From positions 1 to 64,000 of the forward strand of contig WRLF01000008.1 in NCBI GenBank assembly GCA_009777735.1: 64,000 nucleotides of DNA, given 5' to 3'. Within the stretch, counting starts at the first letter, position 1. Each line of letters starts with the position of its first letter. Below are positions 1,245 to 10,215 of the stretch, piece after piece. The position numbers and the translations under genes are program-made. This stretch comes from Treponema sp. (GTDB lineage Bacteria > Spirochaetota > Spirochaetia > Treponematales > Breznakiellaceae). The notes below the pieces were generated by a model that ran no database searches, was not told the origin of the DNA, and worked only from the letters and a program-made list of their open reading frames with translations.

Positions 1245-2498
1245 ATGAATAAATTTTCAAGTAGCGGTTTTATGAAAAAATCATTGTTGGTTTTTGTCGG
1301 ATTGCTGGCAATCAGCGGAGGGCTGTTTGCACAGGACCTGCCACGGTTGGCGGTGGTGGAATTCAGCACAAATGTTAATACCGAGAAAGCCAGGGCGGAC
1401 GCAGTAACGGTGCGGAATCTGGTTGAGAGCCAGATGGTGGGGACGAGGCAATACCAGATAATCACCCGCAACGAGATTGACCAGCTTCTGGCAAACCAGC
1501 GGATACAGGTATCGGAAATATCCAGTACAGAAAACATCCAGCGGCTGCAACTGCAAAATATCAGCTATATCGTAACCGGCTCTGTTGATGCAATGGGCGA
1601 TGACTATGCGATAACAGTGCGGGTACTTGATGTATCCAATGGACGCTTTTCACACAGCGACAGCGATTTAATGGGCAGCAGCTCGCGTGATTTATTCAAC
1701 GGGATTGGCGCTTTGATGGCGCGGTTTGCCACCGCAATGGCAACGGACGAGCGGGGAGCCATAGTGCAGGCGGACACACTGCGGCCGTCTCCCAGCGGCA
1801 TAAGCATACAAGTAAGCACCGATACCGGCGGCGACTTGTATTTCCAGGGCGAAAGAGTCGCCACCCTGTGGGACAACGATAGCCACACGATTCCCATTGA
1901 GCGGCCGGGGACGTATTCATTAAGGCTGGTACTGGTGAACCAGTTGGAAAAAACAACTTCTGTTACGATAACAACACGGGGGGTAACAAGGGTAGATTTT
2001 GCAACTATTAATATTTCTTATAGAGTTGGTGGTCCGGGCCCGGCCGGCGGAATAATATTTTATGACAAAGGGAACGATGCAGACGGCTGGCGGTTTCTGG
2101 AAGCGGCGCCTGCCAGTACGGAGTTCAGCAGTATACAATGGGGAGCATATAATCGTGATGTTGCTGGAACTGCATTGGGCATTGGCACCGGCAGACGTAA
2201 CACGGAACTGATTGTAACACGGCTTGGGGAGTTGGGGGAAACGGGACGGGCGGCACAGTTGTGCGCCGGCCTGAATTTCGGCGGATTTAGCGACTGGTTT
2301 TTACCGAGCAGGGACGAGTTGAATTTGATGTACACAAACCTGAGACAACGAGGATTGGGCGGTTTTGGATCCGATTGGTACTGGTCCTCGTCTCAGAGCA
2401 GTGCTTCCGGCGCCTGGTACCGGCATTTCGGTTACGGCAGCCAGGACTACCTCAACAAGAACACTACACTCACAGTTCGTGCCGTCCGGGCTTTTTAG
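1245..2498 (+). CDS. Secreted CsgG-like / C-type-lectin-like protein with DGR-type variable C terminus (copy 1)
   Basis: 417 residues. Signal peptide about 1-29, CsgG/LpoB-like domain about 33-165 ('RLAVVEFSTN', 'YIVTGSVDAMGDDYAITVR'), PEGA-like beta domain about 185-255, then a DUF1566/Lcl-type lectin-like domain beginning 'GPAGGIIFYDKG' and ending RAVRAF. The ATG follows gtgaggag. The last 45 codons before the invariant tail differ sharply from the paralogue at 6810, although the sequence just before them is almost identical. DGR variable proteins such as treponemal TvpA carry their variable region at the same place in a C-type lectin fold. The likely role is a variable ligand-binding protein at the cell surface (inference). 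Confidence 0.75.
   Translation: MNKFSSSGFMKKSLLVFVGLLAISGGLFAQDLPRLAVVEFSTNVNTEKARADAVTVRNLVESQMVGTRQYQIITRNEIDQLLANQRIQVSEISSTENIQRLQLQNISYIVTGSVDAMGDDYAITVRVLDVSNGRFSHSDSDLMGSSSRDLFNGIGALMARFATAMATDERGAIVQADTLRPSPSGISIQVSTDTGGDLYFQGERVATLWDNDSHTIPIERPGTYSLRLVLVNQLEKTTSVTITTRGVTRVDFATINISYRVGGPGPAGGIIFYDKGNDADGWRFLEAAPASTEFSSIQWGAYNRDVAGTALGIGTGRRNTELIVTRLGELGETGRAAQLCAGLNFGGFSDWFLPSRDELNLMYTNLRQRGLGGFGSDWYWSSSQSSASGAWYRHFGYGSQDYLNKNTTLTVRAVRAF
2370..2465 (+). other. Putative DGR variable region (VR) of copy 1
   Basis: Compared with 7908-8006, codon pairs such as agc/gtc, tcc/aac, ggc/tac, tac/ctc, gac/ttc, tac/agc and ctc/aac change both first bases but keep the third C. Single changes such as cgg/cag, cat/cgt and agt/aat fit A-to-N change at one site. 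The bracketing blocks tactggtcctcgtctcag and ctcacagttcgtgccgt are identical. The GC-rich block at 2476-2491 is in the right place for an initiation-of-mutagenic-homing site. No template repeat or reverse transcriptase is in the window. Confidence 0.7.
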
Positions 2499-2500
2499 GT

Positions 2501-2534
2501 TGGAGAATAGGGAATAGGGAATAGGGGCTGGGGT
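2501..2534 (+). repeat. G-rich heptamer repeat, G-quadruplex-capable
   Basis: Starts 2 bp after the stop of the lectin-like gene. Three gggaata heptamers are followed by two GGGG runs, giving at least five G runs separated by 2-4 bases, which fits the usual G-quadruplex pattern. It lies between convergent genes and could end transcription or mark recombination junctions. Confidence 0.65.
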
Positions 2535-2580
2535 TGTTGTATGAAAGCTGTGCGGGTTGCCGTCGGGCGGATAGCGGAAG
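2535..2580 (+). repeat. Shared 45-bp tail element, copy 1
   Basis: Core gttgttgtatgaaagctgtg followed by cgggttgccgtcgggcgg. Near-identical blocks follow the heptamer repeats at about 3401, 4600, 6184 and 8072. Four of the five sit just downstream of the end of a minus-strand toxin-antitoxin module. It has no clear coding content. Confidence 0.65.
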
Positions 2581-2595
2581 GCAGAGAAAAATATA

Positions 2596-3006
2596 TCAGC
2601 GAAACCAGATGAAAGGAATGGGTTCATTCTCTGCAATTGGTTCAAGTTCATGATGATCAGAGGTAACAAATTGACAGGAAAGTTCAAAAGCAGTGGCAAG
2701 TCCAATACAGTCAGCAAGAGATATCCTGTATGTCGCTTTCAGACGTGCAGCTTCCTGAAAGACCTGCTCCGAAATCGTATTAATAATTTTTATGGAATAA
2801 TGCTGAACCATATCAAGTACAATCTGGGCAATATCGGCGCCTTTATCCCGCAATTCACCGTAATACACTTCAAGAAGGTTGACAATACTCATGGAAACAG
2901 AAGTCTTATTTTTAGCAGACTGTTCCAGAAATGTTTCTATTACATCGGCGCTTTCTTCGTCATTGAGAAATGCAAGAAGAGCGCAAGCATCAAGAATATA
3001 GTGCAT
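2596..3006 (-). CDS. PIN-domain toxin, VapC type (module 1)
   Basis: 136 residues, a full PIN domain. Acidic residues expected at the metal site are visible: D7 in 'YILDACALLAFL', E46 in 'VNLLEVYYGE', D98 in 'ISLADCIGLA' and D116 in 'FVTSDHHEL'. The family cleaves RNA. It lies 9 bp downstream of its antitoxin on the same strand, and its end abuts the shared tail element. Confidence 0.85.
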   Translation of the reverse strand: MHYILDACALLAFLNDEESADVIETFLEQSAKNKTSVSMSIVNLLEVYYGELRDKGADIAQIVLDMVQHYSIKIINTISEQVFQEAARLKATYRISLADCIGLATAFELSCQFVTSDHHELEPIAENEPIPFIWFR

Positions 3007-3015
3007 CTTATAAAA

Positions 3016-3291
3016 CTACCGTATTCCACGGTTTTGGCGATCATCTACCGCATCTTCCAGAGCTTTGTTTTCACGCTGCAATTCACGCAGACGCTCAATA
3101 CTAATGCCTCTACCTTTCAGTATCCCCCTGAACGATTTTACCGGTTTGACTGGTGCAATACTGCTTTGGCTTTCGAGTTCAATAGGAATGTCTATTGCAA
3201 TCCGTGCTTTTGCGCCAACTGGTATCGAGCGGGGCAAGTCAAGGAATACCCGGTAATCAGCAGGAATTTCAACAATTTGTTCAATAGTCAT
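3016..3291 (-). CDS. Antitoxin of the MTIEQIVEIP family (module 1)
   Basis: 91 residues. The N terminus 'MTIEQIVEIPADYRVFLDLP' looks like an AbrB/VapB-type swapped-hairpin DNA-binding domain, with a variable helical C terminus that would bind the toxin. The same N terminus begins the antitoxins at 5326 and 8821. The start is placed at this ATG because a promoter (TTGTTT, 17 nt, TATAGT) ends 6 nt upstream and there is no ribosome site, so the mRNA is probably leaderless. A longer in-frame extension upstream would run through repeats and is not credible. Confidence 0.75.
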   Translation of the reverse strand: MTIEQIVEIPADYRVFLDLPRSIPVGAKARIAIDIPIELESQSSIAPVKPVKSFRGILKGRGISIERLRELQRENKALEDAVDDRQNRGIR

Positions 3292-3326
3292 ACATACACT
3301 ATACCGCATAAAAACATCGTAAACAA
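3277..3326. promoter_or_regulatory. Interlocked face-to-face promoters, copy 1
   Basis: Plus strand: TTGTTC at 3277-3282, 17-nt spacer, TATACC at 3300-3305. Minus strand: AAACAA/TTGTTT at 3321-3326, 17-nt spacer, TATAGT at 3298-3303. The two -10 boxes overlap and each -35 lies beyond the other start point. The plus -35 falls inside antitoxin codons 4-5. The same layout recurs at 5312-5361 and 8807-8856. Confidence 0.7.
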
Positions 3327-3338
3327 GGAGAATCAAAC

Positions 3339-3368
3339 ATGAATGAGGAATTAGGAGGTAGGAATTAG
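3339..3368 (+). pseudogene. Stub of a lost secreted-protein gene
   Basis: The plus promoter, the ribosome site aaggag and an ATG are conserved exactly as before the genes at 5374 and 8869. The frame stops after nine codons because the heptamer repeat begins directly after the ATG. The gene body seems to have been removed between its start codon and its 3' repeat. Confidence 0.6.
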
Positions 3369-3430
3369 GAGGTAGGAGTGAGTAGTGAGTAGGGTCGTTG
3401 TACGAGGGCTGAGCGGGTTGCCATCGGAGC
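3343..3430 (+). repeat. Heptamer repeat plus tail element, copy 2
   Basis: Heptamers of the type gaattag/gaggtag and gagtgag/tagtgag run to about 3394. They are followed by gtcgttgtacgagggctgag and cgggttgccatcgg, a diverged copy of the tail seen at 2535. Unlike the other copies it is not next to a toxin gene. Confidence 0.55.
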
Positions 3431-3444
3431 TCTGTCAAAAAAAT

Positions 3445-3612
3445 GGCAGGCACCGTTTTTGTAATCCGCGAAATCCGTGGACTTCTTCCGTTCGTGAGGT
3501 TCGTGATGGTTCGTGGTAAATTCTTTTTTCTATCCCTCCGTGCAACTCCGTGTCCTCCGTGGTTATTATTCTTTGCGTTCTTCGCGATCTTTGCGCCTTG
3601 GCGTGAGTATTT
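3445..3612 (+). repeat. Intergenic 'ccgtgg / ctttgcg' repeat cluster
   Basis: Successive near-repeats: cgcgaaatccgtgg, ttcgtgatggttcgtgg, gtgtcctccgtgg and ctttgcgttcttcgcgatct, then ctttgcgccttggcgtgag. A related block precedes ilvB at 55200-55236. Both end with gtgag five bases before a possible start codon. Similar wording occurs in intergenic DNA of unrelated bacteria (recollection, not checked). Confidence 0.5.
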
Positions 3613-3639
3613 TTGAATAAATTTTTTAGGAGCGTTTTT

Positions 3640-4566
3640 ATGAAAAAAGCATTGTTGGTTTTAATCGGATTGCTGGCAATCAGCGTGGGGTTGACTGCAC
3701 AGCAGCTAACAGTAGCGGTAAGTCCGTTTGAGGCAAGGGGCGGATTTTCTGCTGATGAGGCGGATGCCATTACGGAAATACTCATATCGGAACTGGTTAC
3801 AAACGGAACGGTAAATGTAGTTGACCGCAGAAGTTTTGACTCCATTATTGCCGAGATGCAATTCCAGGCATCGGATTGGGCGGACAGCGACCGGGTAGCC
3901 CAGTTGGGGGCAGCACTTAACGCAAGCAGCATTCTACAGGGATCGGTTTCATCGCTCGGCGGCCGTGTTGTTATTACTGTCCGCATACTTGATATAAATA
4001 CCGTCCAATTTGTCTCTTCTTCAACATTGCAGTTAGCAAATATGGGCGAAATTTTTGACAAGTTTCCGCCGTTTGTACTGAGCATGTTAAGCAATCTGCC
4101 CGGTGTAATGAGAGTGTATCAGGTAGGCGAACTTGGTCCGTCAGGCGGATATGTGTTTTTTGATAAAGGGTCGTATTCAGATGGCTGGCGCTATCTTGAG
4201 GCGGCACCTGATAGCGCAGAGTTTTCGACTGGTTTTAATAATGCTGAGACTCGAGCTGGAGCGTTGAATATCAATGGAAATACTGGCTGGCGATTACCGA
4301 CACGAGAAGAGTTAAATCGCATGTATGGTACTTTAAAGCAACATAATTTGGGTAACTTTGCCAATGGATCGTATTTTTCAAATGCATCCAGTTCGAGAAA
4401 TAGAGTTTATGGCCATTCTACAATTAATATGAATCATGTGTGGATCCAGAATTTCGAAAGTGGCAATCAGAGTGAAATTGAAACTAATGACGTCACTTTT
4501 CGTGGTGAATCTGCTTCGTTAGGATCTTTTCGTTCTTTTAGAGTCCGTGCCGTCCGGCAATTTTGA
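3640..4566 (+). CDS. Secreted CsgG-like / C-type-lectin-like protein (diverged paralogue)
   Basis: 308 residues from this ATG, which has aggag seven bases upstream. An upstream TTG at 3613 aligns with the start of the paralogue at 1245 and has gtgag before it, so it remains possible. Signal peptide, then a CsgG/LpoB-like domain ('LTVAVSPFEARGGF', 'NASSILQGSVSSLGGRVVITVR'). There is no PEGA-like segment. The lectin-like domain starts 'GELGPSGGYVFFDKG' and ends FRVRAVRQF. Its C-terminal region is longer and lower in GC than in the two close paralogues and does not show their codon pattern, so it may use another template or be undiversified. Confidence 0.7.
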   Translation: MKKALLVLIGLLAISVGLTAQQLTVAVSPFEARGGFSADEADAITEILISELVTNGTVNVVDRRSFDSIIAEMQFQASDWADSDRVAQLGAALNASSILQGSVSSLGGRVVITVRILDINTVQFVSSSTLQLANMGEIFDKFPPFVLSMLSNLPGVMRVYQVGELGPSGGYVFFDKGSYSDGWRYLEAAPDSAEFSTGFNNAETRAGALNINGNTGWRLPTREELNRMYGTLKQHNLGNFANGSYFSNASSSRNRVYGHSTINMNHVWIQNFESGNQSEIETNDVTFRGESASLGSFRSFRVRAVRQF

Positions 4567-4645
4567 TATGGGGGTCGGGGACTAGGGATCAGGGGCTGGG
4601 GTTGTTGTATGAGAGCTGTGCGGGTTTCCATCGGGCGGATGGCGG
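4567..4645 (+). repeat. G-rich heptamer repeat plus tail element, copy 3
   Basis: GGGGG, GGGG, GGG, GGGG and GGGG runs between 4569 and 4600 (G-quadruplex-capable), then gttgttgtatgagagctgtg and cgggtttccatcgggcgg. It separates the lectin-like gene from the convergent PIN toxin gene. Confidence 0.65.
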
Positions 4646-4668
4646 TGAGGGAACAAGGAGATATCTTT

Positions 4669-5061
4669 TTATGATGAAAGAAGTTTTGTTCCGGAAAGTT
4701 GATTTGCCACTTTTTGGTCAAATGTCAAAAGCGGCGTGTTCCCAGACTTTCGGGCAAGCGCTTCAAGGTAACAGTCGACAAAAGAAAGTTTGGGATGACT
4801 GGAGTAAACAGGAAGGATTTCCATGAAAAGTTCCTTATTACATAAAATAGAATCTTTCTCGATAACTGCTAGTATTGCTTTATTTACCGTTTCTCTGCTA
4901 ATTTTCTTTACCTTTTCCAGGACGAAAACAGTCTCAATAAGGGCTGCATCAGCAACGGCATATTTTTTTTCGGAATCAATGAGATCAGTAATCAATGCTG
5001 TCTGCTCCGGTATATCACCTAAAAGCCAGCGCAAGATGCAATTGGTATCAAGGCTCGGCAT
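4669..5061 (-). CDS. PIN-domain toxin, VapC type (module 2)
   Basis: 130 residues from 'MPSLDTNCILRWLLGD', the normal PIN N terminus. A longer in-frame start 33 bases upstream is unlikely. Catalytic-site acids: D5, E43 in 'ALIETVFVLEK', D94 in 'LSFVDCYLEALA' and D112 in 'LLTFDQKVA'. The start overlaps the end of the antitoxin gene by 14 bp, indicating translational coupling. It is a different PIN subfamily from the toxins at 2596 and 8122, although its antitoxin shares their N terminus. Confidence 0.85.
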   Translation of the reverse strand: MPSLDTNCILRWLLGDIPEQTALITDLIDSEKKYAVADAALIETVFVLEKVKKISRETVNKAILAVIEKDSILCNKELFMEILPVYSSHPKLSFVDCYLEALARKSGNTPLLTFDQKVANQLSGTKLLSS

Positions 5062-5326
5062 AACGTTCCCTGGCATGGGCTTCCCAGCCGTCACCGCTTG
5101 CTGCCGTTACCGCCAAGGTTCCGTTTTCAGTCATTTCCTTATTCAAAAGCTGTCTGATATTTTTGATTTCGGCAGATGGCGATTTTACGGATTTGTCTTG
5201 GTCTATTATATTATCTACAGGAATGTCTATTGCAATCCGTGCTTTTGCGCCGACCGGAACCGAGTGAGGCAAGTCAAGGAATATCCGGTAATCGGCTGGG
5301 ATTTCAACAATTTGCTCAATGGTCAT
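5048..5326 (-). CDS. Antitoxin of the MTIEQIVEIP family (module 2)
   Basis: 92 residues. 'MTIEQIVEIPADYRIFLDLP' is nearly identical to module 1 through about residue 35, then diverges. The C terminus would match its own toxin. The start follows TTGTTT, 17 nt, TATAGT and 6 nt with no ribosome site, so it is probably leaderless. The conserved head and variable tail suggest DNA recognition is kept while toxin partners are swapped. Confidence 0.75.
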   Translation of the reverse strand: MTIEQIVEIPADYRIFLDLPHSVPVGAKARIAIDIPVDNIIDQDKSVKSPSAEIKNIRQLLNKEMTENGTLAVTAASGDGWEAHARERYAEP

Positions 5327-5361
5327 ACCTACACTATACCGCAAAAATACATCATAAACAA
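5312..5361. promoter_or_regulatory. Interlocked face-to-face promoters, copy 2
   Basis: Plus: TTGCTC 5312-5317, 17 nt, TATACC 5335-5340, leading to the gene at 5374. Minus: TTGTTT at 5361-5356, 17 nt, TATAGT at 5338-5333, leading to the antitoxin at 5326. Confidence 0.7.
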
Positions 5362-5373
5362 GGAGAATCAAAC

Positions 5374-6126
5374 ATGAAAAGAATACTGGTATTCATCGGC
5401 TTATGCCTCGTGTTGTGCGCGGCATTGACGGCGCAAAGCGAAGGGCAGGATTTGGCAATCCTCAACAGGATAATGCGGCTCAAAATGGACGGGCTTATCC
5501 CTCTGCGCTTTGTAAACGCGCTGGACGGAAGCCCTGTTGAAGGCGCGTCAGTTGCGGTTACAGGCATCGGGAATTTTACCACCGACATGCACGGCATTGT
5601 CACATTTCCCGAACAGGAAGACGGGTTTTATACGCTGGAATTTTCCAGACAGGGGTTCATCACTTCCCGCATGGAGTTTGAAGTAAAATTAAACAATGTT
5701 TTTACCAATCAAATTTCCGTTTCACCGGTAATGCGGGGTGATTACCTGCGTATCGTTTTGGACTGGGGGCAGCATCCGGCCGATCTGGATTTGCATTTTG
5801 TTAAAGAAGGAGACGGCGGGTATCACATTTCCTACTGGAATATGCGCAGCGCCGCAGACGGTTCCGTGCTGCTTGACCGAGACGCAATGCGCGGTTTTGG
5901 CCCTGAAACCATTACCATTATGGAAACGGATTTACGGGCAGTGTACCGCCTGTATGTGCATGATTATACAAACCGCAACAACGCATCATCCAGTAATTTA
6001 TCCCGTTCCGGCGCAATTATCCGGGTATACGGCCGTAGCGGGTTGCTGCACACTTTCCGCATACCGGAAAACCGCGCCGGTGTCAGGTGGGATGTGTTCA
6101 GGATTGTGAACGGGCAGGTTCAGTAA
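5374..6126 (+). CDS. Secreted protein with carboxypeptidase-regulatory-like and DUF2135/YfaP-like domains
   Basis: 250 residues. Signal peptide 1-20 (ends LTAQ). Residues about 45-110 ('LRFVNALDGSPVEGASVAVTG') look like a carboxypeptidase-regulatory or PEGA beta-sandwich. Residues 125-240 ('LRIVLDWGQHPADLDLHF') look like the DUF2135/YfaP beta domain. The start has aaggag eight bases upstream, shared with the genes at 3339 and 8869. It is probably periplasmic or surface-exposed; the function is unknown. Confidence 0.65.
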   Translation: MKRILVFIGLCLVLCAALTAQSEGQDLAILNRIMRLKMDGLIPLRFVNALDGSPVEGASVAVTGIGNFTTDMHGIVTFPEQEDGFYTLEFSRQGFITSRMEFEVKLNNVFTNQISVSPVMRGDYLRIVLDWGQHPADLDLHFVKEGDGGYHISYWNMRSAADGSVLLDRDAMRGFGPETITIMETDLRAVYRLYVHDYTNRNNASSSNLSRSGAIIRVYGRSGLLHTFRIPENRAGVRWDVFRIVNGQVQ

Positions 6127-6231
6127 ATGAGGAGTGAGGAATGAGAAGTGAAGAGTGAAGAGTGAGGAGGTTGGAGTGAAAAATGTTGTTGTGTGGGAGC
6201 TTGCAGGGGTTGCTGTCGGGCAGTTTGTGGC
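6127..6231 (+). repeat. Heptamer repeat plus tail element, copy 4
   Basis: About eight heptamers of the form gtgagga/atgagaa/gtgaaga follow the stop codon directly. Then comes gttgttgtgtgggagcttgc and ggggttgctgtcgggcag. Here the heptamers are A-rich rather than G-run-rich. Confidence 0.55.
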
Positions 6232-6261
6232 GAGGGAGAAAAAAGGAAAATGAAAAAGATA

Positions 6262-6504
6262 TTATACGACAGCAGCGGCAACTTTTTCACTGACCAAATC
6301 ATCAATGATCTGGACAGGGCTTTTGTTGGCAGCTTTTGCTTGAGTCAAAAGGTATTGAACGGTCATGTTCTTCAGCCCAGAAATGCGAAGTTCCCGCTGA
6401 CTCAGCCAGTCGCTTCCATCAAAAATGATTTTTGGTGGATTGCGGGTCAACTCTTCGTCGAGAGCGTCATATTCTTCATCTGTCATGTCAGTGTAATTAT
6501 TCAC
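6262..6504 (-). CDS. BrnA-like antitoxin (module 3)
   Basis: 80 residues, starting at a GTG with agga(g)aac about 6 bases upstream. 'MTDEEYDALDEELTRNPPKI' at residue 7 is the acidic head seen in BrnA-type antitoxins. The C-terminal half could be a ribbon-helix-helix ('LKNMTVQYLLTQAKAAN'). It follows its toxin by 9 bp, the toxin-first order of brnTA modules. Confidence 0.6.
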   Translation of the reverse strand: MNNYTDMTDEEYDALDEELTRNPPKIIFDGSDWLSQRELRISGLKNMTVQYLLTQAKAANKSPVQIIDDLVSEKVAAAVV

Positions 6505-6513
6505 TTTGTTCTC

Positions 6514-6762
6514 CTACTCTATTTGAGTAATTGTACTGCTTTGGCAGCCCATAGCATGAAATACCTTAATCGTATCATTACCAATGGGGTTATAAAATAT
6601 TTCAATCGGATTACCGGCACGATTGAAACCAACAAATGCGTATTTATTATCATAGCCTTCCAGCAAACCTTTGAGAATCATGGTTTTATAAGCATGGAAA
6701 ATGTCTTCTTTCGTTACCCCGTGCTTGAACGCCGAAGGAGCAAATACAATTTCCGGTTCCAC
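6514..6762 (-). CDS. BrnT-like toxin (module 3)
   Basis: 82 residues from a GTG start (VEPEIVFAPSAFKHGVTKED). The 'KHGVTKEDIFHAY' and 'GNPIEIFY...TIKVFHAMGC' segments match the layout of BrnT RNase-fold toxins, though similarity is moderate. The start is chosen because TTGCTC (6797-6792), a 17-nt spacer and TATACT (6774-6769) end 6 nt before it, as for the leaderless antitoxins. The only toxin-antitoxin pair here that lacks the MTIEQIVEIP antitoxin. Confidence 0.6.
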   Translation of the reverse strand: MEPEIVFAPSAFKHGVTKEDIFHAYKTMILKGLLEGYDNKYAFVGFNRAGNPIEIFYNPIGNDTIKVFHAMGCQSSTITQIE

Positions 6763-6768
6763 ACGTTT

Positions 6769-6797
6769 AGTATAGTAGAAAACGGATATATGAGCAA
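6769..6797 (-). promoter_or_regulatory. Promoter of the BrnT-like module
   Basis: On the minus strand: TTGCTC, 17-nt spacer, TATACT, then 6 nt to the GTG start. It overlaps the leader and ribosome site of the plus-strand gene at 6810. Confidence 0.6.
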
Positions 6798-6809
6798 GGA
6801 GAAAGAGAT

Positions 6810-8039
6810 ATGAAAAAGACACTATTGGCAATCGGTCTGACGGCGGCAATCAGCGCAGGGTTGTTTGCACAAGACCTGCCTCGTCTCGCGGTGGTGGAAT
6901 TCAGTACTAACAGCAACGCTGAAAAGGTAAGACAAGATGCCATCACGGTGAGGGATCTGGTGGAAAGTCAGATGGTGCAGACCCGCAAGTATACGATGGT
7001 AACCCGTAATGAAATAGATCACCTGATAGCAAACCAACGGATACAGATATCAGAAATTTCCAGCACGGAAAACATCCAGCGGTTGCAGCTTGCAAACATC
7101 AGTTATATTGTAACCGGATCAGTTAATGCAATGGGCGATGATTACTCAATTACGGTACGGGTGCTTGATGTATCTACGGGGCAGTTTTCCCACAGCGACA
7201 GCGATTTTATGGGCAGCGGTGGAAGGGATTTGTTCAACGGGATAGGAACTTTGATGGCGCGGTTTGCCACCGCAATGGCAACGGACGAGCGGGGAGCCAT
7301 AGTGCAGGCGGACACACTGCGGCCGTCTCCCAGCGGCATAAGCATTGAAGTAAGCACCGATACCGGCGGCGACTTGTATTTCCAGGGCGAAAGAGTCGCC
7401 ACCCTGTGGGATAATGATAGCCACACGATTCCCATTGAGCGGCCGGGGACGTATTCTTTGTTTATTAGATTGGTAAACGGGGTTTATAAAGTGACTTCCG
7501 TTACAATTTCAGCAAGGGGAACGGTACGGGTTGATTTTTCAACTATTGCTGAACTTGCAGTAGGGAATACCGGGCCTGCCGGCGGAATAATATTCTATGA
7601 CAAAGGAAACGATGCAGATGGCTGGCGGTTTCTGGAAGCGGCGCCTGCCAGTACGGAGTTCAGCAGTATACAATGGGGAGAATCTATTAGTGATAATATT
7701 GCTGGAACTGCATTGGGCATTGGCACCGGCAGGCGTAACACGGAACTGATTGTAACACGGCTTGGGGAGTTGGGGGAAACGGGACGGGCGGCACAGTTGT
7801 GCGCCGGCCTGAATTTCGGCGGTTTTAGCGACTGGTTTTTACCGAGCAGGGACGAATTGAATTTGATGTATACAAACCTGAGACAACGAGGATTGGGCGG
7901 CTTTGGAACCGGTTCGTACTGGTCCTCGTCTCAGGTCAATACTAACTACGCGTGGCTCCAGCGTTTCGGTGACGGCAGTCAGTTCAGCAACCAATTCAAG
8001 AGAAATACACTCACAGTTCGTGCCGTGCGGGCATTTTAG
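6810..8039 (+). CDS. Secreted CsgG-like / C-type-lectin-like protein with DGR-type variable C terminus (copy 2)
   Basis: 409 residues with the same domain order as the gene at 1245: signal peptide (1-20, ends GLFAQ), CsgG-like domain, PEGA-like domain, lectin-like domain ending RAVRAF. Ribosome site aaggag lies seven bases before ATG. The DNA is a mosaic against copy 1: moderately diverged over the first third, almost identical at about 7250-7440, diverged again at 7455-7570, almost identical at 7570-7905, then hypervariable. Confidence 0.75.
   Translation: MKKTLLAIGLTAAISAGLFAQDLPRLAVVEFSTNSNAEKVRQDAITVRDLVESQMVQTRKYTMVTRNEIDHLIANQRIQISEISSTENIQRLQLANISYIVTGSVNAMGDDYSITVRVLDVSTGQFSHSDSDFMGSGGRDLFNGIGTLMARFATAMATDERGAIVQADTLRPSPSGISIEVSTDTGGDLYFQGERVATLWDNDSHTIPIERPGTYSLFIRLVNGVYKVTSVTISARGTVRVDFSTIAELAVGNTGPAGGIIFYDKGNDADGWRFLEAAPASTEFSSIQWGESISDNIAGTALGIGTGRRNTELIVTRLGELGETGRAAQLCAGLNFGGFSDWFLPSRDELNLMYTNLRQRGLGGFGTGSYWSSSQVNTNYAWLQRFGDGSQFSNQFKRNTLTVRAVRAF
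7908..8006 (+). other. Putative DGR variable region (VR) of copy 2
   Basis: Counterpart of 2370-2465, one codon longer. Nearly all differences lie in codon positions 1 and 2, with third bases (mostly C or T) conserved, as expected if both derive from AAY-rich template repeats by adenine mutagenesis. Confidence 0.7.
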
Positions 8040-8117
8040 GTTGGGGAATAGGGAACAGGGAACAGGGGCTGGGGTTGTTGCATGAGAGCTGTGCGGGTTT
8101 CCATCGGGCAGTTTCCG
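8040..8117 (+). repeat. G-rich heptamer repeat plus tail element, copy 5
   Basis: GGGG, GGG, GGG, GGGG and GGGG runs at 8043-8073 in heptamer register (gggaaca), then gttgttgcatgagagctgtg and cgggtttccatcgggcag. It matches copy 1 closely, so the duplication of the lectin-like gene extends past its stop codon. Confidence 0.65.
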
Positions 8118-8121
8118 GGGT

Positions 8122-8505
8122 TTACATTACAACCCGGGCAGTATAACCAGGATATTGGAAATCACGTAAATGGGCATCAATGGAGAGGACAGTGGCATTA
8201 AGGTTAATTGCTGAAGCCGCAATAAGAGCGTCAGGGAGGCGCAATTTTTTGGATCGGCGGATTTGGATTGCTATTTCGCAAGAGGATTGGTCTATTTCTG
8301 CCCAATTAAATGAATCCAGCAATGCGCGGGCTTCGATTTCTTCTTGTTCGCTCATGTCAGCTTTGGCAAGAACTTCGATCTTTATTACCGGATTGATATA
8401 TAGTTCACAATCCGGAAAGGCATCAAAAAAATCAAGTAAGTCCAAATTGCCATTGAGAATGTTAATAATGATATTAGTGTCTAGCAGGAAACGTGACTTG
8501 TTCAT
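8122..8505 (-). CDS. PIN-domain toxin, VapC type (module 4)
   Basis: 127 residues. 'RFLLDTNIIINILNGN' (D9), E44 in 'PVIKIEVLAKA', D92 in 'LRLPDALIAASAI' and D110 in 'VLSIDAHLRDF' give the PIN metal site. It starts 1 bp after the antitoxin stop codon. Its end abuts the tail element. Confidence 0.87.
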   Translation of the reverse strand: MNKSRFLLDTNIIINILNGNLDLLDFFDAFPDCELYINPVIKIEVLAKADMSEQEEIEARALLDSFNWAEIDQSSCEIAIQIRRSKKLRLPDALIAASAINLNATVLSIDAHLRDFQYPGYTARVVM

Positions 8506-8506
8506 A

Positions 8507-8821
8507 TTAATTTTGGTGTGTCTTTACCGGATCGGGGTTCCATGGATCACGGTGTTCCCATTCATCCCGCATAGTATTGACATCTTCAATGTGGTTTCCC
8601 CAGGGGTTGTCTTTCCATGCGCCATAAGCTCTCCGAAGGGCATGGCGGAGATTTTTATTATTGCCTTGACTATTAGCTTCCGGAAGAATAGTATCGTTTA
8701 TTTGCGTGTCTTCCAATGGAAATTGAATGATTACCCGGGTTTTCCCTTCCGGAACTGCCTTCGGTACATCAAGGGTAATCCGGCGGCTGGCTGGAATTTC
8801 AACAATCTGTTCAATGGTCAT
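8507..8821 (-). CDS. Antitoxin of the MTIEQIVEIP family (module 4)
   Basis: 104 residues. 'MTIEQIVEIPASRRITLDVP' head shared with modules 1 and 2; a longer, different tail ('WEHRDPWNPDPVKTHQN'). The start follows TTGTTT, 17 nt, TATAGT and 6 nt, so it is probably leaderless. Confidence 0.75.
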   Translation of the reverse strand: MTIEQIVEIPASRRITLDVPKAVPEGKTRVIIQFPLEDTQINDTILPEANSQGNNKNLRHALRRAYGAWKDNPWGNHIEDVNTMRDEWEHRDPWNPDPVKTHQN

Positions 8822-8856
8822 ATCCATACTATACCGTATAAAAACATCGTAAACAA
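8807..8856. promoter_or_regulatory. Interlocked face-to-face promoters, copy 3
   Basis: Plus: CTGTTC 8807-8812, 17 nt, TATACC 8830-8835. Minus: TTGTTT at 8856-8851, 17 nt, TATAGT at 8833-8828. Same geometry as copies 1 and 2. Confidence 0.7.
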
Positions 8857-8868
8857 GGAGAATCAAAC

Positions 8869-10215
8869 ATGAAAAAAGTGTTTTTGTTATTCGCCATCTA
8901 TCTTGGGCTATGCACGTCACTGACAGCGCAAATCCCCTCTGACTGGGATACGAACCCGCCGCGGAATAACGCGCAGTTTATGTTTGCCGTTGGTATTTCG
9001 CAGCCGTCGGCAACGGAACAGGAAGCGCTGCGGGGAGCATGGCAGGATGCCGTGCAGCAGTTCGCCGCTTCTGTCGCGGTGCATTTTCAGGGGCAAACGG
9101 ACATTACCGTCCAATCGGAATCGTTTGCCAGCGGTATTGAAGACGCCCATACCGTTTACATGGAAACGGCTTCGTTCTCCACCAATGTCCCCATTAGCGG
9201 TGTTGTCGAACAGGCGCGGAGAATTGAGACTTCGGGCGGACGGTATGTCGCCCGTATTCTTGCGGCTATGCCGGTAGCGGATTACAACAGGGCGCGGATG
9301 TATGTGGCAAACGAAGAAGCGGCATACCTTGCGTACCGGTTTTTTGGCCAGCGGGGGTTGTTTACCCTTGCGGCAAGGCCGGCGGGGTTTGGAGACTTCA
9401 ATTCATGGCTGCGGAATACGTGCGTCATTATTTCTGTTGATGACCAGAACCCCACCCCCCTGCTTGAACAGCTAGACCAATTTACCCGAAGGCTGTACCG
9501 AAATGCTGTTGTGTTTGCGCAGATAATTGACGGGCGTGGCGCACGCATAATCTACAATTCGGGCAGGTACTATGACGGCCTGTTGCGGGCTTTGCAGAAC
9601 ACGGCGTTGTTTACCATACAGCGGGAAGGTACGCATCTGACGCTGCGGCCTGTCAGGGCAAATATCCTGAATGAACTGAGGACGGCGGTAACGACGATGA
9701 AAGATTCGGGGCGATTTGTCATCACAGGGCTGGAAACAATACAGACTCAAGGGGGCGATACAACGAACACCGGCGCAATCGTCATCGGCCAGTTCAGAAC
9801 CATTGCCTCGCGCCAGTTCAATATGCAGGCGGCGAACTATACGATTCCCGCGCAGCTTCTGTCCGGCTTTGTTGATGAAGATGCAATTATTCGGCACATC
9901 GAGAACAACCTCGCCGCTTTTCCGGCACGGTATTTGATAATCAGCCGGTCAGAGACCCGTCTGAACCGGGGGATACCGGAATATAATGTACCGCCGATTA
10001 TAACAGCTTCAACCCATTTTACGCTGTACGATGTGGTTACCGGGGAAGCTTTGCAGAGCGAGACGGCGCAGACGGCAGCCGGCGGTTTTTCGCCTTCCAG
10101 CCTTGAAGACAGGGTTGTTATCGAAGAAAGCCGGAGGGCGCTGCAATTTCTGTTCAATGCCAGAACACGCCCCGGCCTTGAAGATATCATACGGGGAGTT
10201 TTTGAGCAGTTGTAA
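8869..10215 (+). CDS. Secreted LPP20-like protein
   Basis: 448 residues. Signal peptide 1-20 (ends SLTAQ). Residues 25-140 ('MFAVGISQPSATEQEALRGAWQDAVQQFA') resemble the LPP20/FlgP-like domain, also found in the product at 167. The middle and C-terminal parts (about 165-430) hold alternating strands and helices like a CsgG/LpoB module ('FVITGLETIQ', 'HFTLYDVVTGEALQSETA') but are not recognisable with confidence. The ribosome site aaggag is shared with the gene at 5374. It ends the island on the right. The function is unknown. Confidence 0.6.
   Translation: MKKVFLLFAIYLGLCTSLTAQIPSDWDTNPPRNNAQFMFAVGISQPSATEQEALRGAWQDAVQQFAASVAVHFQGQTDITVQSESFASGIEDAHTVYMETASFSTNVPISGVVEQARRIETSGGRYVARILAAMPVADYNRARMYVANEEAAYLAYRFFGQRGLFTLAARPAGFGDFNSWLRNTCVIISVDDQNPTPLLEQLDQFTRRLYRNAVVFAQIIDGRGARIIYNSGRYYDGLLRALQNTALFTIQREGTHLTLRPVRANILNELRTAVTTMKDSGRFVITGLETIQTQGGDTTNTGAIVIGQFRTIASRQFNMQAANYTIPAQLLSGFVDEDAIIRHIENNLAAFPARYLIISRSETRLNRGIPEYNVPPIITASTHFTLYDVVTGEALQSETAQTAAGGFSPSSLEDRVVIEESRRALQFLFNARTRPGLEDIIRGVFEQL

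Follow-up and report, generated by a model that had tools for sequence, protein, structure and literature searches.

In the genus Treponema, diversity-generating retroelements (DGRs) have been described from Treponema denticola, for which complete elements are reported in nine of 17 isolates (PMC4891356). Eight isolates that have no template repeat (TR) and no reverse transcriptase (RT) keep 2 to 6 target genes, and orphan DGR targets are already known from that species. Such orphan targets can escape RT-centred surveys, and one large survey (PMC8144416) states that remote targets are not detectable by its approach. The DNA considered here, called the window, comprises bases 1-64000 of contig 8 (WRLF01000008.1; 119,850 bases) in the Treponema sp. 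assembly GCA_009777735.1, which consists of 2.69 Mb in 39 contigs and is 83% complete. The window contains two genes, named A and B, whose 3' segments are very probably variable regions (VRs) of a DGR.

Gene A (1245-2498, + strand) and gene B (6810-8039, + strand) share the same architecture and their protein products are 83% identical. Each has an N-terminus that by eye resembles a signal peptide, followed by a CsgG-like domain, a linker and a C-terminal, C-type-lectin-like Lcl_C domain (PF07603), which we take to be the family also called DUF1566. The Pfam scores for Lcl_C are 48.3 bits in A and 45.2 bits in B, whilst those for CsgG are 19.9 bits in A, slightly below the cut-off of 20.8, and 22 bits in B. 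The two products are likely to be secreted, and their lectin-like domains may bind ligands. Modelling bore out the lectin fold proposed in the initial annotation, as a model of the B Lcl_C domain built with 11 further sequences reached a mean predicted local distance difference test (pLDDT) score of 90.3. A fold search with this model gave only two PDB matches with E <= 0.001, namely 8q4e, the C-terminal domain of the Legionella protein Lcl (5.9e-6), and 4eps (1.4e-4); many C-type lectins appear among the weaker matches, and TvpA is not among the best 50 matches listed. A profile search of PDB sequences also returned 8q4e first (E 1.4e-13). The VR covers the last strands of the B model. A lectin-like fold at the VR-bearing C-terminus of A and B is shown by prediction, from the Lcl_C matches of both and from this model.

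That the 3' ends of A and B are nearly identical around a hypervariable stretch, as first described, was confirmed, although homology to the TRs of sister species moves its borders slightly. On this basis VR A occupies 2379-2495 (+ strand, 39 codons) and VR B 7917-8036 (+ strand, 40 codons, one more than A), with the changed codons at 2397-2465 and 7935-8006 respectively, each followed by a conserved 3' end (2466-2495 and 8007-8036, both + strand) that resembles an initiation of mutagenic homology (IMH) sequence and that in B carries two third-base differences from A. Within the variable core of 25 aligned codons there are 15 non-synonymous and two synonymous codon changes. The upstream flank (72 codons, 2163-2378 and 7701-7916) differs at 8 of 216 bases, with 1, 2 and 5 changes at codon positions 1, 2 and 3. 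Since these flanks are 96% identical (3.7% divergence), with five synonymous changes in 72 codons, the divergence of the core is more recent than the last sharing or homogenisation of the flanks. In the N-terminal parts of the two genes it is third positions that differ most, for example 14, 9 and 25 changes at positions 1, 2 and 3 over 51 codons.

The TR-homologous segment (39 aligned codons) has 10, 12 and 6 differences at the three codon positions, and change at positions 1 and 2 is strongly in excess of that in the flank (22 of 78 versus 3 of 144 sites, p=1e-8). In 12 codon pairs base 1 and/or base 2 changes whilst a third C or T is kept, and in seven of these both bases change (codons 6, 9, 10, 13, 22, 23 and 24). 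On its own, the skew between codon positions is modest evidence (p=0.04 when the 72-codon flank is the reference, p=0.02 when residues 262-374 are) and was dropped as deciding evidence because it is too weak. Hence, the argument is carried by a comparison with actual template columns in related genomes.

A PF00078 search of 98 genomes, the window's own included, gave an RT match in 29, the own genome not being among them. The 30 RT loci comprise 19 with xGxxxSQ, the motif of DGR-type RTs, six with QGGxxSP and five with neither. A script that listed only those TR/VR-like pairs whose mismatches favour A (T when read from the opposite strand) gave such a pair in 14 of 21 genome sets. The DGR type that matches the window occurs in three congeners, G012, G020 and G038. 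In G012 and G020 the gene order is target, a 113-aa open reading frame (ORF) that we take to be Avd-like from its position and size, TR and RT; in G038 these parts are likewise present, on a short contig whose start truncates the target. All three RTs carry IGNLTSQ, with the G020 RT sharing 79% identity with its G012 counterpart and 71% with the one in G038; seven congener RT stretches match phrog_1423 at E <= 2.3e-59. Loci found by protein in named genomes belong in 8 of 11 cases to Treponema, Spirochaetales or Spirochaetia and in three to other bacteria.

The TRs of G020 (L079), G012 (L078) and G038 (L086) read FWSSSQNN.NNAWNQ... and are collinear, codon by codon, with the window VRs. Their cis TR/VR mismatches fall at TR adenines in 19 of 20, 19 of 21 and 14 of 16 cases respectively, figures that come from the bias-filtered listing, the same alignments having also been inspected unfiltered. 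These loci share with the window the VR frame, the VR length (39 or 40 codons) and the IMH-like end, and differ from it in that they keep the core, whereas the window targets carry a CsgG-like part. In G020 and G012 the cis targets measure 252 and 290 aa, respectively; neither has a CsgG match, and both are marginal for Lcl_C (32.9 and 35.2 bits; cut-off 34.9). At the VR 3' end both A and B have C (GGGC), as the cis VRs do, where the three congener TRs have G (GGGG).

When the congener TRs, none of which comes from the own genome, are laid over the window VRs, A and B differ at 20 of the 32 columns that have adenine in all three TRs, at 6 of the 74 columns with adenine in none, and at 2 of 11 mixed columns. 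The association is pronounced (odds ratio (OR) 18.9, p=1.1e-8) and robust, with p ranging from 5e-10 to 5e-8 over five placements of the one-codon gap. Because the TRs of sister species predict which columns vary, DGR mutagenesis of the lectin-like domains, as originally suggested, is the best reading, and it is strongly supported by the comparison with congeners. A DGR RT would have copied a non-coding, AAY-rich TR with misincorporation at adenines, and the cDNA would then have replaced the 3' ends of A and B by mutagenic retrohoming. The outcome would be two different putative ligand-binding faces on the C-type-lectin-like Lcl_C domain. This lineage presumably had, or still has, such an RT and TR.

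Rewriting of remote VRs in the genus is shown by alignment to the templates. Compared with the contig-1 TR, a VR on contig 18 of G012 is changed at 15 of 41 adenines and at one of the 79 other bases; for a VR on contig 42 of G020 and its TR the counts are 20 of 40 adenines and 2 of 77 other bases. The non-adenine change common to both is G to C at the 3' end, as expected for IMH* versus IMH. More broadly, TR-adenine columns vary more in other VR pairs too, but below the degree seen between A and B. For 28 pairs within G006 the OR is 1.9 to 8.2, and 12 pairs within G012, G020 and G038 range from an OR of 4.1 to zero non-adenine changes. The VRs compared came from the fetched loci plus one sequence pattern, a part of the Lcl_C genes of the genus, and the pair tests used VRs of 39 or 40 codons, leaving out longer or shorter ones such as L169 (38) and L171 (43).

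The lengths of the VRs, 39 codons in A and 40 in B, can be set beside those of the TRs, which have 39 codons in G020 and G038 and 40 in G012. It is unlikely that one and the same template served for the last rewriting of both A and B. The one-codon length difference, together with the six non-adenine differences, suggests two templates, one template that changed, or drift since the last rewriting, alternatives that the data do not separate.

Contig 20 of G006 (L068:262-8595), which provides the best congener match of gene B, has a same-strand run of seven Lcl_C-type ORFs, six of which have a VR-like end of 39 to 45 codons; the one ORF that was checked for CsgG has a match. The G006 RT, of the LGSQVSQ type, was considered as the template source for these genes and rejected on this test: a TR/VR-like pair of its own lies on contig 9, and none of the three congener TRs matches that locus.

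Several observations weigh against a DGR origin of the A and B segments. The codon-position skew is not significant when compared with equal use of the three positions (P=0.13), and third-base change in the VR is not zero, occurring in 6 of 39 codons (GCC/GCG, AGC/AGT, AAC/CAA, AAC/AGA, GTC/GTG and GCT/GCA). This is not significantly more than the 5 of 72 in the flank (p=0.19), and drift or a second template could account for it, either being sufficient. Of four codon pairs singled out by the initial annotation as not fitting a single template, TGG/TCG (2376/7914) lies just outside the VR and the other three, GCC/GCG, AGC/AGT and AAC/AGA, are real third-base changes. In three further G038 copies the non-adenine changes number 6, 9 and 12, next to 19, 21 and 17 at adenines; in L179 of G020 there are 18 of the former and 25 of the latter. 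The own-genome copies on contigs 2 and 11 have a weaker skew, with an OR of 2.0 (p=0.09) with each other and 2.7 to 6.6 against A or B. A hairpin downstream of the VR is a feature of DGRs, and no perfect stem of >=6 bp with a loop of 3-8 bases occurs within 110 bases after either window VR, whereas one is present at the three cis VRs; such a stem is likewise absent after the well-mutated remote VRs L168 and L177.

A further adverse point concerns the mutator core. The A/B locus is not a complete DGR in the available assembly, as a DGR-type RT, a non-coding TR and an Avd-like gene were all not found. Searches of the assembly returned no RT with PF00078, phrog_1423 or the congener RT, no Avd with the congener Avd as query and no TR with the congener TRs or the window VR as queries, so that the check proposed at the outset, for a DGR RT or an AAY-rich template in the genome, came out negative. 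A 22-bp candidate TR at contig 4:125823 was discarded, as by eye its likeness to a template is confined to an AAC-rich stretch. With 17% of the genome missing, the absence of the core is not proven. Moreover, a missing RT and TR do not refute a DGR origin, because T. denticola targets lacking both are documented (PMC4891356).

Genomes without the core are common in this genus. A close RT accompanied by a matching Avd is found in three of 39 genus genomes and any match to the congener RT in 13; the Avd query matches four, strongly in three. The G012 TR matches 21 of the 39, some by merely short AAC-rich stretches; the own genome is not among these 21 at that threshold, and it was the G020 TR that picked up VR A. 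In G026, which is 94% complete, neither PF00078 nor the congener RT has a match, and its VR pair differs at 15 of 32 adenine and 2 of 74 other columns. In G032, contig 10 (L195:1784-2143) carries a VR-bearing Lcl_C-type gene followed by a 41-residue remnant of an RT C-terminus that is 59-66% identical to congener RTs, and to judge from this arrangement the locus is a decayed DGR. Exact patterns built on the two conserved VR ends were absent from the viral contigs scanned, whilst a congener RT has matches in two viral contigs (47% identity) and in 99 phage records, none of them reaching 60% identity, and the Lcl_C domain of B matches two phage records.

Granted a DGR origin, loss or dormancy of the core is put at slightly above an even chance, and its presence outside the assembly, in missing genome sequence or an unbinned element, at slightly below one. 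Taken among all readings, the view that the core was lost, leaving A and B as fossil VRs that evolve as ordinary paralogues, is about evenly balanced. It draws on the failure to find an RT, Avd or TR in the assembly, on the RT stub of G032, on the G026 VR pair that has no RT match and on the T. denticola isolates which keep target genes without RT and TR (PMC4891356). Set against it, the mutator core might lie in the 17% of the genome that the assembly lacks, and the hypervariable codons show silent change at about the same level as the flank (2 of 25 codons versus 5 of 72). Somewhat less than even odds go to the reading that the living cell has a mutator core, outside the assembled sequence or on an unbinned element, which continues to rewrite A and B in trans. 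The incompleteness of the assembly allows for it, remote VRs are rewritten from a distant TR in G012 and G020, and both A and B have kept intact reading frames and VR lengths. On the other side, the 6 of 74 non-adenine differences between A and B, compared with 0 of 75 and 1 of 74 in the best TR-matching cis/remote pairs of G012 and G020, speak against very recent rewriting from one TR, and G026 has VRs with no RT match. The proposal of an RT and template acting in trans is thus plausible in view of the remote VRs but not shown for the own genome, core loss being at least as likely.

The two readings that dispense with a retroelement are both very unlikely. Ordinary diversifying selection on the binding sites of paralogous lectins would gain from the variable columns probably being binding-face positions, and from the fact that the 28 G006 pairs also vary more in these columns, in a genome whose DGR-type RT has another template. 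It is opposed by the seven core codons that change both first bases and keep the third beside flanks of such low divergence, and by the existence of actual templates in congeners. Segmental gene conversion from silent donors, as in the vls and TprK systems, is the least probable reading. Long near-identical tracts of A and B do adjoin divergent N-terminal parts, and conversion between A and B outside the VR is probable. However, a DNA search of the own assembly with the VR end returned B, A and the end of a contig-11 gene with no separate donor fragment, and cassette exchange does not predict the concentration of change at TR adenines.

For DGR mutagenesis across the genus, it is possible, though on balance doubtful, that the mutator core is transient whilst arrays of lectin targets persist. 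In such a scheme the core would be repeatedly lost and might be regained, and the Lcl_C repertoire (three genes here, seven in G006) would be rewritten in bursts, A and B having last been rewritten from two different templates.

The A/B locus looks as if it was built by repeated duplication. Between A and B lies a third gene (3613-4566, + strand), which is CsgG/FlgO-like and has a diverged Lcl_C-like end that scores 31.7 bits, below the cut-off. The sequence pattern used did not recognise a VR in it; its segment 4426-4471 resembles the templates (78% over 46 bases), as if it were an unrewritten relative. Downstream of each of the three Lcl_C-type genes of the window is one PIN-domain gene, toxin-antitoxin-like and on the opposite strand (2596-3006, 4669-5094 and 8122-8505, all - strand). 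Two three-copy repeat families frame the cassettes, with copies 63-89% identical to the reference copy. One (3179-3343, 5214-5378 and 8709-8873) ends near a start codon, copies 2 and 3 doing so at the genes starting at 5374 and 8869, and the other (2456-2577, 4524-4645 and 7997-8118) spans the 3' ends of the Lcl_C-type genes. The window opens with a poly-C-rich, low-complexity contig start (1-95), about 1.1 kb before gene A and possibly an assembly end artefact.

With the window and its relatives a further lineage of DGRs is added, from a spirochaete genus that is uncultured and whose related species between them carry templates, remote targets and orphan targets. The congener set makes it possible to test directly for how long the lectin repertoires outlast their mutator. 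The T. denticola DGR (PMC4891356), with TvpA and the remote targets, is alike in being treponemal and in having targets with a C-terminal C-type-lectin fold, several remote target genes per genome, and isolates with targets but without RT and TR. In contrast, the T. denticola targets are of the FGE-sulfatase type, 62% with lipoprotein signals, and the accessory gene is HRDC-type, whereas in the window targets an N-terminal CsgG-like part precedes Lcl_C (PF07603), and the accessory gene of the congeners, which lies between VR and TR, codes for a protein of 113 aa. A likeness also exists to the DUF1566 DGR targets, for which 4EPS, the second fold match here, served as the structural template (PMC4159848, PMC6642488). 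The window targets differ from these in that no RT or TR was found with them, in the fusion of the domain to a CsgG-like N-terminal part and in the repeated nature of the locus.

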